From the NCBI GenBank assembly GCA_031265685.1, contig JAISCI010000127.1, positions 1-33,058 of the forward strand: DNA of 33,058 nucleotides. The letters run 5' to 3'. The position numbers and the translations under genes are program-made. The stretch comes from Clostridiales bacterium. GTDB lineage: Bacteria; Bacillota; Clostridia; Lachnospirales; WRAX01. The notes below the pieces were generated by a model. The model did no database searches and was not told where the DNA came from. It was given only the letters and a program-made list of their open reading frames with translations. Shown one piece after another: positions 1,100-30,190 of the stretch; the first letter of the stretch is position 1; each line of letters starts with the position of its first letter.

Positions 1100-1285
1100 C
1101 TATAACATCTGAACGTAATCAAGCACAAGTTCCCACCCCTCTGCGTTTATCTCGCGCAAAAACACCAATAGCCGCCGTTCTTCCAATGTCGGACGGAGCA
1201 ATAGGTTATCGCTTGGTTCACGCGATAACCGCGCCGCCGCGCCGTCCGTGACAACCGATGCTGTACGAAAGCAACGAGAATCAGC
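1100..1285 (-). pseudogene. open frame without a start codon, gene remnant
   Basis: A coding-looking frame ends at a TAG (1100-1102) and gives ...RPTLEERRLLVFLREINAEG, continuing WELVLDYVQML. No ATG, GTG or TTG with a ribosome site is seen at its upstream end, where it runs into the tail of the upstream coiled-coil gene. The helical, charged tail resembles those of small regulators, but I cannot name a family. It is likely a decayed downstream gene of the XRE and coiled-coil operon. Confidence 0.3.
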
Positions 1286-3204: not shown

Positions 3205-3655
3205 CAGACTTGTCCGCTATTGCGTCCAAAACAAAGGCATTATCTCGGTTTATCCGAATAAAAGTTGAATTGGGATATTTCAAAGTGATTGCTTCAAAAG
3301 GGTAACGTATTATCCTCGGTGTGTTGAAACCCACACCCAACTCCAACAGAACGAGATTTTTATTATATGCGTCGGCCAGAAACTTCTTATAGCTTTGTAT
3401 GTTTTGAACATGCGGTGTTTCAACAAAACGATGGTCACACCGCAAGTTTGGCACCATAAATCCGCCGCAATGCGGACAGCGCGAAATGTCGGAAAAACGG
3501 ATTTTAGTCGATGATACCATATTGGCGAGCATGGCGACAATTTGTATTTTGTTGTCAATAACGTCTTGCGAGCAGGGGCCGGCGCATTGAAACAGCGCGT
3601 AATCACCCTGCGGCGCAAATATCTTCTGCTTGTCGAACCCCGCTTTTGTTAACGG
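3167..3655 (-). pseudogene. C-terminal fragment of a SIR2 (sirtuin)-family protein
   Basis: The open frame covers about 162 residues, but the N-terminal NAD-binding half of the domain is missing. Visible sirtuin features are TKAGFDKQKIFAPQGDYALF, a zinc ligand pair CAGPC, a second pair CPHCGG, and the C-terminal block LELGVGFNTPRIIRYPFEA followed by RINR and a K-S-V motif. This pattern matches the bacterial SirTM-like subgroup (macrodomain-linked sirtuins that act in protein ADP-ribosylation), which is family knowledge. The sequence breaks at about 3655, exactly where a truncated methylase begins on the other strand, so it is a rearrangement relic and cannot be active. Confidence 0.75.
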
Positions 3656-3813
3656 CTATTAAAGGCCAGTTCATACTGTCTTATAATGACTGTGAGTTTG
3701 TTCGGGAGCTGTACGGCGGATTTAATATTGAGCCTGTCTCGCGGCAAAATAATCTGGCGAACCGATATGACGGCACGGAAAATTATAAGGAGTTGATCGT
3801 TTGGAATTACTAA
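3655..3813 (+). pseudogene. dam: C-terminal fragment of a Dam-type (D12 class) adenine DNA methylase
   Basis: About 52 residues remain: AIKGQFILSYNDCEFVRELY, then the family-typical RQNNLANRY and YKELIVWNY before the TAA. This is the extreme C-terminus of D12-class N6-adenine methyltransferases, which are common in phages and integrative elements. The catalytic DPPY and FxGxG parts are absent. The left break coincides with the break in the sirtuin on the opposite strand. Confidence 0.7.
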
Positions 3814-3840
3814 TAGTCAATAATTTAATTTGACTATTAG
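3810..3840. repeat. perfect 11-bp inverted repeat at the end of the methylase fragment
   Basis: CTAATAGTCAA (3810-3820) and TTGACTATTAG (3830-3840) flank a 9-base AT-rich spacer, beginning inside the last codons of the dam fragment. No T run follows, so it is not a typical terminator. It may be a remnant recombination or regulatory site. Confidence 0.5.
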
Positions 3841-3879
3841 CGCTATTTTGATTCTGTTTATATTGTATAATTGGATTCT

Positions 3880-4010
3880 TTTTGTATATAAAAACGTTCT
3901 ATGCGTGCGGTGATTTACTGTACATATGGAACATTTTTCGTTTGTTTGACAGAGAAAAAAGTTGTCATTTTACATAGAGATGTTTGACATTCTTTCTGAA
4001 CGCTTACAGC
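3880..4010 (-). repeat. dispersed repeat B, copy 1
   Basis: The reverse complement of this segment matches 16534-16658 over its whole length with scattered differences; shared blocks include GTAAGCGTTCAGAAAGAATG and CGCATAGAACGTTTTT. It abuts the truncated 5' end of the transposase remnant. No ORF of note is inside it. Confidence 0.7.
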
Positions 4011-4126
4011 AAGATCAAACCGCGTGGTTTCGCACATTGTGCGAACTGACGACCCGGACGCGGTGGTCATCAAACGATGTTTGCGGTTAGGCATCGAAAA
4101 TAACCAAGCCATTCCCGGCATAAGGT

Positions 4127-4219: not shown

Positions 4220-4277
4220 GAATTTTCGCGGGTATGAATTTCGCTTGAACCAAGCGAAATTCTGTCAGGCGAAAATT
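4220..4277. repeat. nested pair of palindromic elements
   Basis: The outer arms GAATTTTCGC (4220-4229) and GCGAAAATT (4269-4277) surround a complete inner element with 12-bp perfect arms GAATTTCGCTTG and CAAGCGAAATTC and loop AAC (4236-4262). The inner unit sits in the middle of the outer loop GGGT...TCAG, so one element inserted into another. Confidence 0.75.
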
Positions 4278-4471: not shown

Positions 4472-4500
4472 GGAATTTTGCCTGGATCACGCAAAATTCC
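4472..4500. repeat. palindromic element in the transposase remnant, copy 3
   Basis: Perfect 10-bp arms GGAATTTTGC and GCAAAATTCC flank CTGGATCAC. Removing 29 bases rejoins VK with RIAQGIANFRQCL, so this copy shifted the reading frame. Confidence 0.7.
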
Positions 4501-7825: not shown

Positions 7826-8083
7826 CCAAAAGCCTCCCTTTGGCCCGGCGGTATTATTATATACCGCCGCAATAAAAAAATAAACAGACAATCAGAATGA
7901 ACCTTAGTTTCTATTGTAATTCTTTATCGGCAGACGGGCGGCGGCGGGTTAATGTGAGATTTACGGCGTCCGTTCCGGTCATCCGCCCGTGATCGCGGCT
8001 AAGGGCTGGGGGCGATAGAAAAACGGACGCGCTTTCATGGGTGCGGCGGCATATGCGCAAGAAAGATAATATTATAACACACT

Positions 8084-8150
8084 TTATCCGCTAAAACCAT
8101 GTATATTTCAATGATTTCATGTACTGAAGGGGCGAAATGATGTAATTTAC
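8084..8150 (+). repeat. dispersed repeat A, copy 1 (67 bp)
   Basis: Identical at 64 of 67 positions to 16670-16736 in the same orientation, starting TTATCCG and ending TGTAATTTAC. It has no coding signal of its own. The flanks of the two copies do not match clearly, so it behaves as a discrete unit. Confidence 0.85.
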
Positions 8151-8354
8151 GGCACGCCGCTCCGCCATCATCCATCCGCCCCGGCGCGCGGCCAAGGGCT
8201 ATGAGCGGAAAACAAACGCGTTTGCGCGGGCACAGAGACATCTCTTCACAGGGAAAGACGGAATAGCGGTATATTATCGGCTCTTGCGCGCCGTATCACG
8301 CTTGGCGGGCTTCGGCGCGTCTGCGAAACGCGCGCCGCGTCTCGAAAAAAAGCC

Positions 8355-8978: not shown

Positions 8979-8990
8979 AGGGTGAGCGCG

Positions 8991-9515
8991 ATGGATGAAG
9001 AACCCAAATGGTACGTTGTGCATACCTATTCGGGGTATGAGAACAAGGTTAAGGCCAACATCGAAAAGATCGTCGAGAACCGGGGTATGAGCGAGTTCAT
9101 CCGGGAAGTTACCGTGCCGACGCAGGAAGTGGTCGAGCTAAAGAACGGCCAGAGAAAGACCGTTATGCGCAAGATATACCCTGGGTACGTCCTCGTCAAG
9201 ATGATTATGGACGACGACACGTGGTATGTCGTCCGGAACACGCGGGGAGTGACCAGCTTTGTCGGCCCCGGGTCGAAACCCGTCCCGCTGTCCGAGGACG
9301 AGGTGCTGACGATGGGCATAGAGCAGCGCAAGAAGGAAGTTATCGATCTGGCCGAGGGCGATTCGGTCATGATCGGCTTCGGGCCGTTCGAGGGTTCGGT
9401 CGGTCTTGTCAAGGAAGTCAACAACGGGAAGCGCACGGTGGTTGTCCGCATCTCGATGTTCGGCCGGGAAACGCCGGTCGAGCTTGACTTCAAACAGGTG
9501 CACAAAATGGATTAA
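8991..9515 (+). CDS. nusG: transcription termination/antitermination factor NusG, 174 aa
   Basis: NusG binds RNA polymerase and modulates pausing and termination. The N-terminal NGN domain shows WYVVHTYSGYENKVKANIEK and RKIYPGYVLVKMIMDDDTWY followed by VVRNTRGVTSFVG; the C-terminal KOW motif is at about EGDSVMIGFGPFEGSVGLVK. Start is ATG 8991 with AAGGG eight bases upstream. It lies 12 bases after secE and 18 before rplK, as expected for one operon. Confidence 0.95.
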   Translation: MDEEPKWYVVHTYSGYENKVKANIEKIVENRGMSEFIREVTVPTQEVVELKNGQRKTVMRKIYPGYVLVKMIMDDDTWYVVRNTRGVTSFVGPGSKPVPLSEDEVLTMGIEQRKKEVIDLAEGDSVMIGFGPFEGSVGLVKEVNNGKRTVVVRISMFGRETPVELDFKQVHKMD

Positions 9516-10773: not shown

Positions 10774-10880
10774 CGCCGGAGGCAGTTCCCTGATTCCGAA
10801 ACCGCCTCGGCAGTTCCCTGATTCCGGAACTGCCGAGGCGGTTTCGGAACCAAGGAACCGTCTCCGGCGTTTATTTTTTT
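10774..10880 (+). terminator. long-stem intrinsic terminator after rplA
   Basis: A 24-bp perfect stem (10794-10817 with 10826-10849) carries an 8-base loop; outer pairs GTTCC/GGAAC and CGCCGGAG (10774-10781)/CTCCGGCG (10862-10869) extend it, and a T-rich tract (10869-10880) follows. The stem includes an 18-base direct duplication GGCAGTTCCCTGATTCCG (10781 and 10809), so it seems to have grown by duplication. Confidence 0.8.
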
Positions 10881-10937
10881 GTTCGCGCGAGTAATATTTT
10901 TTTGTCTAGCGCCGGATACTATAGTTGGATTCGCGTT

Positions 10938-11025
10938 GATTCGCGGACGAACCAGCGCGAATTCGCAAGGAATTTTGCGGGTCCAGGCAAAATTCACCGG
11001 AATTTTGCGGGTTCAGGCAAAATTC
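10938..11025. repeat. three palindromic elements in tandem
   Basis: Copy 1 at 10938-10964 (arms GATTCGCG and CGCGAATTC around GACGAACCAG). Copies 2 and 3 at 10970-10995 and 11000-11025 share arms GAATTTTGC and GCAAAATTC, with loops GGGTCCAG and GGGTTCAG, at a 30-base period. They lie between the rplA terminator and the surface-protein promoter. Confidence 0.8.
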
Positions 11026-11082
11026 ACTTGATAGTTAACCGCCCTATTTTATTACGCCTTGGTTACAAAAATCGCGCCGCGC

Positions 11083-11111
11083 TTTACATCCCGGAGGTTG
11101 GGTGATAATAT
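11083..11111 (+). promoter_or_regulatory. promoter candidate for the surface-protein gene
   Basis: TTTACA (11083-11088), 17 bases, then TAATAT (11106-11111) preceded by TGA, an extended -10. Transcription from here would leave a leader of about 420 bases before the start codon at 11537. Confidence 0.55.
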
Positions 11112-11117
11112 GCTATC

Positions 11118-11536
11118 AAAGGAGCTGTGGCGCGTTTCGTCCGAGATTTGCGGAGTTTCCTTAATACTGGAATCTCCGGCGCCGCGCCGGAACCGGACGC
11201 CTTCTGCCCAAGGCGCGTGAGCGTTTTAGCGTATCATCGGTTCTGCCGCCTGCGGCGCGGCGAATCACTCCACGGCCCTTGCAAAGTCAAAAAGCGTTTG
11301 GGTTTCCTGGTTTCCGGGGAAATTCGAGCGCCGGTCAACCCGCCCCAAGGATTTTCGCGGGTTCAGGCGAAAATCACTTCAAAGGATTTTCGCCGGACGA
11401 ATTTCGCGTGGTGGAAGTTTGCGGTACCAGGCAAACTTCATGGAAGTTTGCGGCATCAAGCAAACTTCGTCCAAGCGGAATTCCATCAAGCGAGATGCCA
11501 AGGGGCAAACCAATCCTGATAAGGAGGAAACATAGC
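11118..11536 (+). other. long hairpin-rich 5' leader of the surface-protein mRNA
   Basis: No gene is supported in this stretch. Its second half holds palindromic elements at 11350-11375 (arms GATTTTCGC and GCGAAAATC), 11414-11439 and 11443-11468 (both GAAGTTTGC and GCAAACTTC, loops GGTACCAG and GGCATCAA), plus degenerate copies at about 11385-11410 and 11470-11500. The reading frame of the downstream gene is open through this region, but an AAGGAGG at 11521 fixes the true start at 11537. Confidence 0.6.
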
Positions 11537-14665: not shown

Positions 14666-14704
14666 GCAAAAGGAACTTTGCGGCATCATGCGGAATTCAC
14701 TAAC

Positions 14705-14788: not shown

Positions 14789-16402
14789 ATGAAGAAAATT
14801 TGCGGTACCAGGCAAAATTTAGTTAAAAAGGAATTTTGCGTCGTCAAACAAAATTCAGTGAGGGCAAAAATTTTTCTGACACTGCTGGTCATAGCGTTGG
14901 CTATTCCGACGACAATACGCGCCGACGCCGCGCCCGCAAGCGTCATCGTGGACGGGCTTCTACAGCGGCTCGAGCCGTCCGCCGTCAACATCGACGGCAA
15001 CGTGCTGATCGAAGCCGAGCAAATGTTCAAATTAGTCGGGATAACGCGCTACGACGTATCGAAGCCCGAGGTGGCGGTGACGTTCCGGCGTGGGTTGCAG
15101 AATTTCGCGTTCTTCCCGGACGACAGTAACGCGCGCGTGGACGGCGTGGTCGTTCCGATGCGCGCGGCGGCGCAGCTGATTGATGGCAAGCTCTACCTGC
15201 CGCTGCGGTTTGTCGCCGTAAACGCCGGCGTCCCGCCGTCTTGGTCCGAAGGTCTGGGGACTGTGTCGCTGGATACGCGCGCGGCGGATTATTCGGTTCT
15301 GGCGGCGTCGGAGAAAAATACAGACTATTCCGACTACAAGATATACACGCTCGCGGAGGCCGTTTCAAAGGTATACGGCGAATCCAACGATGTGAAGAAA
15401 CTGGACGAATCTATTGAGACCACCGAGGACGCTTTAGATGATATCGAATTGGACTACGGCAACCTGGACGACTTGCTTCTGCGTCATTCCAAGGACTGGC
15501 AGCGCGTGGATCTCCAGCGGCAGGTTCAGCGGTTGCGCGACGCTATCGAGAAGGCTGAGATCGGCAAGGATATGCTCCGGCTGTCCGCTGAGACGCAACT
15601 TGCGTCGCTGGCGAGAGCGATAGAATCAGCGGAATACGATATCCTGCTTTTGGAAAATAAAATCGCCTTGGACGAGTTGAATCTCCGCAACTTGGAGCTG
15701 AAACTGTCTCTGGGATATGAGACTGAAAGCAACGTGAAATTGGCGAAGGATACGCTCGCGCAGTCACGGTTGCAGCTCGGCCAGCTCAAAATATCCTTGG
15801 CGAACTCCAAGCTGGACCTCAACAAATCGCTGAAGGTTGACCCGAAGGCGTTGACGCGAATTGTCCTGCCCGACAACAAGCCATTCATGGCGCCAGACGT
15901 TGATAAATACGCCGAGGACAAGGCTCGCGGCGACCTCAACATCCGTCAGCTCCGAATAGCGCTCGGATATGCGGAACTCGTGTCTGATACGCATTATTTC
16001 ATCGACAAGAGCGAGCGCGAACGCGTGGACGCGCTCGGTGTCAAAGAGAAAGACACGGTTGTGGACGCGGATCTACGCAACGCGGCTTCCGCGTACCATA
16101 CAGCCGTCAGCGACTTGGTTTTCGCCGCGCGAAAAGCGTCTAACCAACTGAAACTGTTGGACGAACAGTACAAGGCGAAAGAGCTTGACCGGCAAAAAGC
16201 TGTCGAACAGTATAAATCGACGCTCGTGCTCTACCAGACCGGAGGAGCGACGATGTATGCGGTGTTGCAGACGCAGGCGGCGATACTTTCCGCTGAAGCC
16301 GCACTCAAGCAGAACCGGATTACGTACTCATCGGCGCTGTATACACTGGAACACACGGAATTATTAGGAAGCGCTTCCGTAACGTCGGATGAAAAGAAAT
16401 AG
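14789..16402 (+). CDS. TolC-like coiled-coil protein with N-terminal copper-amine-oxidase-N-like domain, 537 aa
   Basis: The ATG at 14789 has GGGGAG upstream. The signal peptide is unusual: two palindromic elements encode residues about 3-22 (CGTRQNLVKKEFCVVKQNSV), before the hydrophobic core AKIFLTLLVIALAIP. After cleavage near ADA-AP, residues about 50-155 form a copper-amine-oxidase N-type domain (NIDGNVLIEAEQMFKLVGIT and LIDGKLYLPLRFVAVNAGVP). Residues about 195-530 are long heptad helices with TolC/outer-membrane-efflux character (LARAIESAEYDILLLENKIA; QYKSTLVLYQTGGATMYAVL). In an apparently monoderm lineage it cannot be a classical outer-membrane duct and may instead be a surface or export-associated protein. 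Confidence 0.75.
   Translation: MKKICGTRQNLVKKEFCVVKQNSVRAKIFLTLLVIALAIPTTIRADAAPASVIVDGLLQRLEPSAVNIDGNVLIEAEQMFKLVGITRYDVSKPEVAVTFRRGLQNFAFFPDDSNARVDGVVVPMRAAAQLIDGKLYLPLRFVAVNAGVPPSWSEGLGTVSLDTRAADYSVLAASEKNTDYSDYKIYTLAEAVSKVYGESNDVKKLDESIETTEDALDDIELDYGNLDDLLLRHSKDWQRVDLQRQVQRLRDAIEKAEIGKDMLRLSAETQLASLARAIESAEYDILLLENKIALDELNLRNLELKLSLGYETESNVKLAKDTLAQSRLQLGQLKISLANSKLDLNKSLKVDPKALTRIVLPDNKPFMAPDVDKYAEDKARGDLNIRQLRIALGYAELVSDTHYFIDKSERERVDALGVKEKDTVVDADLRNAASAYHTAVSDLVFAARKASNQLKLLDEQYKAKELDRQKAVEQYKSTLVLYQTGGATMYAVLQTQAAILSAEAALKQNRITYSSALYTLEHTELLGSASVTSDEKK
14795..14856. repeat. two palindromic elements inside the signal-peptide coding region
   Basis: First copy about 14797-14820 (AAATTTGC, GGTACCAG, GCAAAATTT). 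Second 14831-14856 (GAATTTTG and CAAAATTC around CGTCGTCAAA). Both are translated as part of the N-region of the TolC-like protein. Confidence 0.7.
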
Positions 16403-16533: not shown

Positions 16534-16658
16534 GTTTGTAAGCGTTCAGAAAGAATGTCAAAAATCTATATGCATAATGATAACTTTTTTACTCTCACAC
16601 AAACGAAAAAACGTTCTATATATACGATAAATCATCGTACGCATAGAACGTTTTTGTA
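16534..16658 (+). repeat. dispersed repeat B, copy 2
   Basis: Matches the reverse complement of 3880-4010. It begins GTTTGTAAGCG and ends with a hairpin whose arms AACGTTCTAT (16610-16619) and ATAGAACGTT (16643-16652) pair perfectly, with a further ACGAT/ATCGT inside. A truncated relative of its left end is at 21190-21230. It abuts repeat A. Confidence 0.7.
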
Positions 16659-16669
16659 TACAACATGCA

Positions 16670-16736
16670 TTATCCGATAAAGCCATGTATATTTCAATGA
16701 TTTCATGTACTGAAGGGGCGAAAAGATGTAATTTAC
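16670..16736 (+). repeat. dispersed repeat A, copy 2 (67 bp)
   Basis: 64 of 67 positions match 8084-8150. At its right end GATGTAA-T-TTACATC (16725-16739) is a perfect palindrome in this copy. The surrounding interval 16450-16837 has no supported gene. Confidence 0.85.
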
Positions 16737-16837
16737 ATCACCCCACCGACCCTGTCACCCCATCCTCCAGGGGCGGCAGGGAGACGACGCGCGTAAATAC
16801 ATTTGACGGGCGGCGGCGCGTTTATGAAACAAACAAG

Positions 16838-16864
16838 GAATTTTGAGTGGTTCAAGCAAAATTC
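16838..16864. repeat. palindromic element upstream of the lipoprotein promoter
   Basis: GAATTTTG and CAAAATTC flank AGTGGTTCAAG; the GGTTCAAG loop is the best match to the family loop. Confidence 0.7.
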
Positions 16865-18085: not shown

Positions 18086-19062
18086 ACAACAACGCCGCGC
18101 GCGGGATAATCGACAGATACGGCCTGCGGCTTAAACAGCGATATGGCCAGAATTTTCTGACGGATCCGTTCGTGCTGCGAAAAATTATCCGAGCAGCCGA
18201 CCCCGGACCGCGCGACGGCTTTATTGAGGTAGGACCGGGCGTCGGCGCTCTGACCGCGCCGCTCTGCGAGCTGGCGGGGCGCGTCGTCGCGGTCGAGATA
18301 GACGCAGATCTCATCCCGGCGCTGAAGGACACGCTGGACAGAGTTTCGCGCGACGAAATTTTTAATGACGGTATGTTGCGTGACAGGATTTTGCGTGAAG
18401 GAATTTTGCGCGAACCAAGCAAAATTTATTCAAGCAAAATCCATCAAAGCGAAATTCATCCACACAAAATTCATAATGCGGAGATCATAGCCGCCGATAT
18501 AATGCGCCTCGACGCATCCGAGCTTGCCGCGCGGGCTGGCGCGGGTCTGGACCGCGTGAAACTTTGCGCGAACCTTCCTTATAATATAGCGACGGCAGTG
18601 GTGACGCGTTTCCTCGCCGTCAGCCCGCCGCTGGCCTCGCTTGTCGTCATGTTGCAGAAGGAAGCCGCCGACCGGTTTCTGGCGGTTCCCGGCGGCAAAG
18701 ACTACGGCGCGCTGACCGTCGCCGCCGATTGGTACGCCGACTGCGAGATAATCGCCGCCGTGCCGCGCAACTGTTTCATCCCGAAGCCGGGAGTCGATTC
18801 CGCCGTCGTGCGGTTTACGCCCCGGCGAAACCCGTACGCGGCGGTGGACCGGGATTTCCTGTTTTCGGTGGTTCGCGCGGCGTTTGCCTCGCGCCGCAAG
18901 ACGCTGGTCAACAGCATGGCGCTGTCGGGATTCGATAAGGCCGCGACGGCGCGGGCGCTGGCCGAGATGGACCTGCCGCCGGACACGCGCGGCGAGACGC
19001 TTCCGCCGGGGCAATTCGCGCGGCTGGCGGCTATACTCGCCCGTAGCGCTTGCCGAGCCTGA
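18082..19062 (+). CDS. rsmA/ksgA: 16S rRNA (adenine1518/1519-N6) dimethyltransferase RsmA, 326 aa, with an internal repeat-derived insertion
   Basis: Dimethylates two adenines in the 3' hairpin of 16S rRNA late in 30S assembly. Family motifs are GQNFLTD (22-28), the SAM-binding EVGPGVGALT (49-58) and NLPYNIAT; the C-terminal RNA-binding part follows. Residues about 88-132 (RDEIFNDGMLRDRILREGIL and on to HPHKIHN) have no counterpart in the usual family layout. Their DNA (about 18343-18478) is made of nested palindromic elements, lying between the acidic strand VVAVEIDADL and the AEIIAADIM strand, in a surface loop. The frame is intact and the protein is about 45 residues longer than usual. The 3' end overlaps the convergent dnaC-like gene by 32 bases. 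Confidence 0.9.
   Translation: MNNNAARGIIDRYGLRLKQRYGQNFLTDPFVLRKIIRAADPGPRDGFIEVGPGVGALTAPLCELAGRVVAVEIDADLIPALKDTLDRVSRDEIFNDGMLRDRILREGILREPSKIYSSKIHQSEIHPHKIHNAEIIAADIMRLDASELAARAGAGLDRVKLCANLPYNIATAVVTRFLAVSPPLASLVVMLQKEAADRFLAVPGGKDYGALTVAADWYADCEIIAAVPRNCFIPKPGVDSAVVRFTPRRNPYAAVDRDFLFSVVRAAFASRRKTLVNSMALSGFDKAATARALAEMDLPPDTRGETLPPGQFARLAAILARSACRA
18386..18442. repeat. nested palindromic elements inside ksgA
   Basis: The outer arms GGATTTTGCGTGAA (18386-18399) and TTCAAGCAAAATCC (18429-18442) pair with one mismatch. Between them sits an inner element with arms GAATTTTGC (18401-18409) and GCAAAATTT (18419-18427) around GCGAACCAA. Related half-arms (GCGAAATTC, CAAAATTC) continue to about 18473. 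Confidence 0.8.
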
Positions 19063-30022: not shown

Positions 30023-30190
30023 GCATATTCGCTGAACGCATATTCGCTGAACCCCGAATATGCTAGTGCCCGAATATGCCGTGCGCATATTCGCTGAACC
30101 CCGAATATGCTAGTACCCGAATATGCTAGTACCCGAATATGCTAGTACCCGAATATGCTGGAACCCGAATATGCTGGAACCCGAATATGC
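30023..30190. repeat. tandem palindrome array between two pilin genes
   Basis: Contains three GCATATTCG (30023, 30038, 30085) and eight CGAATATGC (30055, 30071, 30102, 30118, 30134, 30150, 30166, 30182). The last six repeat at exactly 16 bases with spacers TAGTACC or TGGAACC. Two full hairpins pair GCATATTCG with CGAATATGC across CTGAACCC. On the mRNA strand the spacer reads GGGTTCCA or GGGTACTA, close to the loop of the palindromic elements elsewhere. The array fills the gap from the vWA pilin stop to the next gene's leader. Confidence 0.85.

Follow-up and report, generated by a model that had tools for sequence, protein, structure and literature searches.

The locus raises the question of how short palindromes whose arms differ between copies, and nevertheless pair, came to be scattered over one stretch of bacterial DNA (33,058 nt in full, hereafter the window). 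A preliminary description, made from the letters alone, had reported separate units of about 27-30 bp with inverted arms and a recurrent loop, and every unit that it named was present where it had been placed. The basic unit is a hairpin of 26-27 nt with 9-bp arms and a conserved GGTTCA-type loop, the arms being variable yet complementary. Separate units do occur, but many copies are nested or in tandem, for example at 4221-4277, 11399-11483 and 30023-30190. The recurrent loop is also real; its two reported forms, GGGTTCAG and TTGAACCAA, represent one kind of loop seen from either strand, and the GGTTCA sense of the loop is found in both orientations. The units in the window are as follows.

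1204-1230, plus strand: single hairpin GGTTATCGC-ttggttcac-GCGATAACC, rare arm word, canonical 9-nt loop
4127-4154, minus strand: hairpin whose loop has diverged (minus-strand reading aacgcttcac), arms ATTTTCGC/GCGAAAAT
4221-4277, unstranded: two-level nested hairpin, outer AATTTTCGC (4221-4229)/GCGAAAATT (4269-4277), inner GAATTTCGC (4236-4244)/GCGAAATTC (4254-4262)
4472-4500, plus strand: single hairpin GGAATTTTGC-ctggatcac-GCAAAATTCC
10928-10963, plus strand: degenerate hairpin, GATTCGCGC-type arms (GATTCGCGG/GCGCGAATT), left arm duplicated
10970-10995, plus strand: 8-nt-loop hairpin GAATTTTGC-gggtccag-GCAAAATTC
11000-11025, plus strand: 8-nt-loop hairpin GAATTTTGC-gggttcag-GCAAAATTC, in tandem, 30 nt after the 10970 hairpin
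11350-11375, plus strand: 8-nt-loop hairpin GATTTTCGC-gggttcag-GCGAAAATC
11399-11483, plus strand: composite, outer arms GAATTTCGC (11399-11407) and GCGGAATTC (11475-11483) around two adjacent GAAGTTTGC hairpins (11414-11439, 11443-11468)
14673-14698, plus strand: decayed 8-nt-loop copy GAACTTTGC-ggcatcat-GCGGAATTC
14794-14856, plus strand: two neighbouring copies, AAAATTTGC-ggtaccag-GCAAAATTT and GAATTTTGC-gtcgtcaa-ACAAAATTC
16838-16864, plus strand: hairpin GAATTTTGA-gtggttcaa-GCAAAATTC
18387-18472, minus strand: hairpin GAATTTTGC-gcgaaccaa-GCAAAATTT, flanked on one side by extra 15-nt-spaced right-arm units (each an arm plus a spacer of 6-7 nt) and on the opposite side by a single left-arm unit
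30023-30190, minus strand: local variant built on the arm word GCATATTCG/CGAATATGC; it has two hairpins and a 16-nt tandem array of arm and TAGTACC/TGGAACC spacers

The arms change together

Perfect inverted repeats (arms of at least 8 nt, loops of 8-14 nt) were about 4-15 times as frequent as in first-order shuffles of the 341 kb of sampled sequence. The unbiased test of arm pairing used loci selected by the loop alone (NTGRTTCAN), without regard to pairing. At least 8 of 9 arm positions were paired in 42 of these 99 loci, with a bimodal distribution, compared with 0 of 75 loci for two scrambled control loops, which bears out the reported family of palindromes with co-varying arms. In the arm alignment, whose rows were pre-selected at ≥8/9 paired, 98% of cells were paired and double-sided changes occurred at 9/9 pairs. 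The alignment held 79 double-sided cells (11 expected in shuffles) and 7 one-sided ones, counts that overstate independent events because the copies are related; many double-sided changes are common by descent, so that independent events are far fewer than cells. Perfect hairpins were most frequent for the arm word GAATTTTGC (85), followed by GAAGTTTGC (15), AATTTTCGC (11), GAATTTCGC (8), GATTCGCGC (6) and CATTATCGT (5), with twelve further, rarer arm words.

Arm mismatches comprised 43 G-T, 32 A-C and 56 others; G-U mismatches did not clearly outnumber A-C ones. Since mismatches are not dominated by G-U and one-sided changes are few, the pattern favours arms that change jointly, either because one arm is copied from the other or because well-folded variants are amplified, over slow compensation of the RNA type. 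The earlier view that the hairpin itself is maintained is supported by the complementary arms and few one-sided changes, and selection on RNA is not indicated.

Copy number and distribution

The draft genome to which the window belongs, as contig 109, measures 2.2 Mb in 130 contigs; it is 91% complete, breaks at repeats and has an estimated contamination of 0.03%. A covariance model derived from 68 distinct copies, with 150 candidates scored genome-wide, found at least 157 hairpins in this genome, confirming dispersal beyond the window, whereas they were almost absent from 40 relatives. The exact pattern GGAATTTTGC-N8-GCAAAATTC occurred 23 and 21 times on the two strands (44 genome-wide), and the reversed control pattern not at all. 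Among 295 genomes of the order, matches at E≤0.001 were found in one, the window's own.

In the GTDB contig collection, the exact 9-nt-loop pattern hit two records only, one from Oscillospiraceae and one Treponema MAG contig, and in these two MAGs every matched place except one lay on a single contig in each genome. The Treponema-binned contig (L022, JAISCC010000039.1) carries the hairpin family together with 118-146 bp repeats that are 97-100% identical to the window's genome; because these repeats are shared, it is probably misbinned, or else common to several bacteria. A search of IMG/VR matched one contig, L052, which has no similarity to our own sampled sequence. Record names suggest that the nearest public matches are MAGs of termite-gut origin. 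An assembly or binning artefact would fit a fragmented MAG and the concentration of matches on one contig in each of the other two MAGs; it is hardly credible given copies on dozens of contigs beside ordinary bacterial genes, a consistent grammar and the low contamination estimate.

Other repeats were noticed alongside the hairpins. A second family of ~140-146 bp elements (TGTCAA..GAAAAAT ... AATACA) lies at many contig ends, with copies at L022:951-1101, L011:8187-8326, L009:18563-18702 and L053:2100-2239; its stems vary between copies and are still largely complementary (e.g. CACCCACCCC versus CCGCCACTAGC), and in L053 hairpin-type sequence adjoins elements of this family. In the window, positions 3646-4012 hold a ~365-bp repeat that is also present in L012 and L083 at 82-85% identity and, in shorter form, in L055 at 94%. 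Inside it, AAAAACGTTCTAT...ACATTTTT (3890-3938) resembles inverted termini; this stretch recurs at 16607-16655. An 86-nt intergenic repeat occurs in two copies, 88% identical, at 8073-8158 and 16659-16744. The perfect 24-bp inverted repeat at 10794-10849, followed by a T-rich stretch, is probably the intrinsic terminator of the upstream gene set (NusG-family gene at 8982-9515).

Two arm classes nest within each other

Arm words were tokenised over 582 kb, comprising the window and 60 stretches chosen for containing matches. This revealed two arm classes, alpha 9-mers (like GAATTTTGC) and beta 10-mers (like GCATTATCGC), which enclose each other as brackets to a depth of up to six levels, usually in alternation and with fixed spacers. 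The nesting is the most unusual feature of the family and is absent from the preliminary description. The composite at L020:1715 illustrates it, reading GAAGTTTGC-atc-GCATTTTCGC-ttggat-GAATTTCGC-gtgattcgaa-GCATTATCGC-ttgatg-GAATTTTGC-gggtttag-GCAAAATTC and continuing with -gttcaa-ACGATAATGC-gat-GCGAAATTC-tgtcac-GCGAAAATGC-ttcgaaccgc-GCAAACTTC. Alpha-to-beta spacers are GTGATTCGAA|GAT or the inverse ATC|TTCGAATCAC, and beta-to-alpha spacers are 6|6 nt. Arm words matched in 60 of 88 cases at level 1 (shuffled mean 11, maximum 23), 28 of 50 at level 2 (mean 8, maximum 15), 13 of 25 at level 3 (mean 4, maximum 10) and 9 of 13 at level 4 (mean 3, maximum 7). The predicted fold of a four-level composite is a rod (z = -3.6).

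The 6|6 spacers beside a guest were under-paired: of 85 cases, 25, 11 and 4 were paired at positions 4-6, fewer than in all 2000 shuffles (means 43, 28 and 22.5). The idea that complementary spacers extend the arms was rejected on this ground. To judge from the compared copies, the under-pairing is best explained by a guest that carries fixed dinucleotides differing between its two sides, A[CT] against TG or CA, and that is inserted in either orientation. The flanks of isolated copies differ from those of nested ones. The bracket structure would record the order of insertion, giving a readable, recursive history of a very small dispersed bacterial element.

Empty and filled loops, and copies inside genes

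Some paralogous host hairpins have an empty 9-nt loop where others hold a guest, and their flanking blocks (28 nt plus arm per side) are 88-97% identical. Such pairs are L014:13388/L080:387, L020:1797/L057:3719, L001:14929/L090:3417 and L018:178/L057:3441. The clearest contrasts the empty loop at L080:387 (GTGAACCAA) with the filled one at L014:13388 (ATGGAT-guest-TGTCAC), the flanks of which extend partly beyond the repeat vocabulary. Filling a 9-nt loop with an alpha guest adds 30 nt net, filling an 8-nt loop with one adds 29 nt, and a beta guest adds 33 or 34 nt. Alpha guests usually have four outer host-loop bases on each side, and the host half-loops around them (TTGG|TCAC, GTGA|CCAA and TTGA|TCAA) correspond to both ends of empty loops. 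A simple rule for excising guests yielded a known empty loop just 28 times out of 61. MITEs, which depend on a DDE transposase, are marked by terminal inverted repeats together with a target-site duplication; the arms here resemble inverted repeats, but neither the gene insertions nor the empty/filled pairs compared showed a target duplication. Comparison of the paralogous copies points to insertion centred on the loop; recombination between repeats could shuffle such copies too, and in individual pairs a guest may have been lost rather than gained.

Copies were also found within genes. In the phage-like contig L021, two hairpins lie within a PAPS-reductase-like gene, between GCIGCP and FPAYRKMYLRAF, the counterparts of which are close together in the reference, phage phiRgPS_6 gp45. 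Relative to gp45, the first hairpin results in a stop codon and the second in a frameshift; the insertion lengths of ~33 and ~31 nt are a best fit and not certain. A D-Ala-D-Ala carboxypeptidase gene in L016 contains a two-level copy that preserves the reading frame and, by comparison with 4k91, lengthens the protein by 17 residues. The presence of copies inside the broken phage gene and in frame in the carboxypeptidase gene argues that they are insertions. L007:12844-14274 encodes an apparent hisA-hisIE fusion, with a linker, PEPAKFRPEPAKFWPESAKF, that is encoded by three repeated half-hairpin units, and hairpin elements may have fused the two genes. For the ORF at L009:18050-18364, which has two in-frame copies, no phage homologues were found. 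The suggestion of a mobile or self-copying family therefore gains support from genome-wide dispersal, in-gene insertions and paired empty and filled host loops; movement itself is deduced from the comparison of copies.

Genomic context and tests for RNA function

Genes called with a home-made program cover 71% of the sequence, and 102 of the 105 hairpins lie between them. One rival reading takes the hairpins for functional RNA structures under selection (3'-end stabilisers, regulators or ribonuclease substrates), amplified as useful. Consistent with this, composites are predicted to fold strongly, and the 8-nt-loop class showed a mild sense bias (22 vs 9, P = 0.03), some copies being located within ~60 nt downstream of stop codons. 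Against it, the nested 9-nt-loop class had no orientation bias (8 sense, 5 antisense), and hairpin clusters had densities per kb of similar magnitude whether gaps were tandem, convergent or divergent, these densities being those of stretches picked around hairpin matches and not genome averages. Divergent gaps were thus about as cluster-dense as the others. At scores above the gathering threshold, no Rfam 15 family matched the hairpins, and only a tRNA was found in 131 kb. Together with the absence of the hairpins from relatives and of a clear G-U excess, this leaves a role as functional RNA very improbable. Intrinsic terminators were rejected by location and orientation, and no T-run was seen after the arms of the hairpins listed. 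Inspection of relatives G001, G002 and G010 for an analogous family built on other words gave mostly terminator-like hairpins, none recurrent in the same manner. As far as the compared sequences indicate, the family in the window's genome has the character of mobile, intergenic and nesting elements.

How the hairpins may be copied

The preliminary description had suggested a RAYT/TnpA partner, which was looked for in the window's own genome and not found. PF01797, which matched 5 of 14 controls, had no match in this 91%-complete genome, and TnpB was not found there either; with neither TnpA (Y1) nor TnpB, an IS200/IS605-derived origin was rejected. No intact reverse transcriptase was found in the genome, which holds a single truncated one of the group II intron type (L119:481-1452, an ORF that ends early, with RVT_1 matched over 1-141 of 205). 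Tyrosine recombinases are present but ubiquitous, and the search for Y2 transposases had controls that gave no signal. Because Y1, TnpB and an intact reverse transcriptase were not found, either the gene for the copying enzyme lies in the 9% that the draft lacks, or the enzyme belongs to a different kind, or template switching takes its place.

The first of these options includes REP/REPIN-like elements moved by a Y1 tyrosine transposase (RAYT/TnpA-REP) whose gene is absent from the draft; a 130-contig MAG easily loses high-copy or repeat-flanked genes. The hairpins agree with REPs and REPINs in size, hairpin form and intergenic location. Both are tiny extragenic palindromes in high copy number, possibly moved as single strands, with hundreds of copies and compensatory hairpin changes described in the accessible parts of the REPIN sources (PMC3116915, PMC8266576). 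Unlike those elements, the hairpins insert into the loops of other copies, a nesting that the accessible part of PMC3116915 does not mention for REPINs. Their conserved part is the loop rather than the foot: they have no GTAG foot, and the GTAG/GGAG motif was present in just 3 hairpins out of 191, where chance would give 6.7%. Membership of the REP/REPIN group was rejected on the foot motif and the Y1 gene, the absence of which is not final at 91% completeness, and an origin of this kind appears improbable.

The main rival needs no dedicated enzyme. Microhomologies in the loop (TTGG, GTGA, TCAC) would let a replication fork or repair synthesis copy in another hairpin and then return, and the same process would correct the arms and produce tandem half-units. 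It is the main rival since the tandem arm-plus-spacer arrays at 30023-30190 and 18387-18472 look like products of slippage. The hisA-hisIE linker, the local homogeneity of the rare arm word GCATATTCG, the mixing of left and right spacers and the lack of a detected transposase fit as well. SbcD, a hairpin nuclease present in many others of the order, was not found in the 91% draft, which also suits template switching; G001, a complete relative that is free of this family, likewise lacks it, and its absence was therefore set aside as not specific. Fixed spacers, the alternation of two classes and near-constant insert lengths show more regularity than unguided switching would be expected to give, and we regard this explanation as rather unlikely.

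We think it probable, from the compared copies, that the hairpins are non-autonomous mobile DNA elements of ~30 nt that have multiplied within a single bacterial lineage and insert preferentially into the loops of copies already present. For their movement we infer a single-stranded route and an enzyme. A single strand, on the lagging strand or in a cruciform, would fold into the hairpin, and an ssDNA-handling activity acting in trans would move or copy it. The exposed loop of another hairpin would serve as the preferred single-stranded target, and each insertion would re-create a loop open to the next. Arm complementarity would persist if only well-folded copies were mobile, if the arms were corrected against each other during copying, or both. 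Whether this amounts to a new mode of transposition, in which a ~30-nt single-stranded hairpin enters the centre of another's loop, two classes are reciprocal targets and the target loop is regenerated, so that nesting is recursive, is a tentative proposal that we hold with less than even confidence. If true, selfish DNA of minimal size multiplies by a new route. The spread of gene-less palindromes, the upkeep of arm complementarity and the use of folded loops as insertion targets in vivo would then become testable.

Comparison with known nested palindromes

Palindromic elements of Rickettsia, which are much longer, can sit in frame within protein genes, as the hairpins do here; to our knowledge, no nesting grammar is known for them. 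No description of reciprocal loop nesting in bacteria was found in the open-access literature searched, a body that most subscription papers fall outside. Arm covariation alone is not new, having been described for REPINs (PMC3116915, in its accessible part) and for HyLIMPs (PMC4524435). The LIMP/HyLIMP elements of Lobosphaera incisa mtDNA have a fixed loop and stems of repeated arm units, with complementary changes in HyLIMP stems (PMC4524435). Unlike the hairpins described here, they are mitochondrial, their stems grow by repetition of pentanucleotides or decanucleotides, and they contain no nested hairpins of two classes (PMC4524435).

The closest known analogue in behaviour is the short palindromic repeats in the mitochondrial and plastid DNA of Volvox carteri, with no sequence relation shown or expected. 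These are often inserted within one another to form long composites and are considered selfish, according to the accessible part of the source (PMC2670323). Both families consist of short noncoding hairpins with a recurrent loop, and palindromes inside palindromes in both orientations were found here too. The Volvox repeats belong to organelle DNA, have loops of 3-5 nt (TAAA/TTTA) and average 50 nt in length, whereas the present hairpins lie in a bacterial chromosome and have 8-9 nt GGTTCA loops and arms of 9-10 bp. Alternation of two classes and fixed spacers, both present here, go unmentioned in that part of the Volvox account (PMC2670323). The family connects bacterial repeats with the unexplained nested palindromes of algal organelles.
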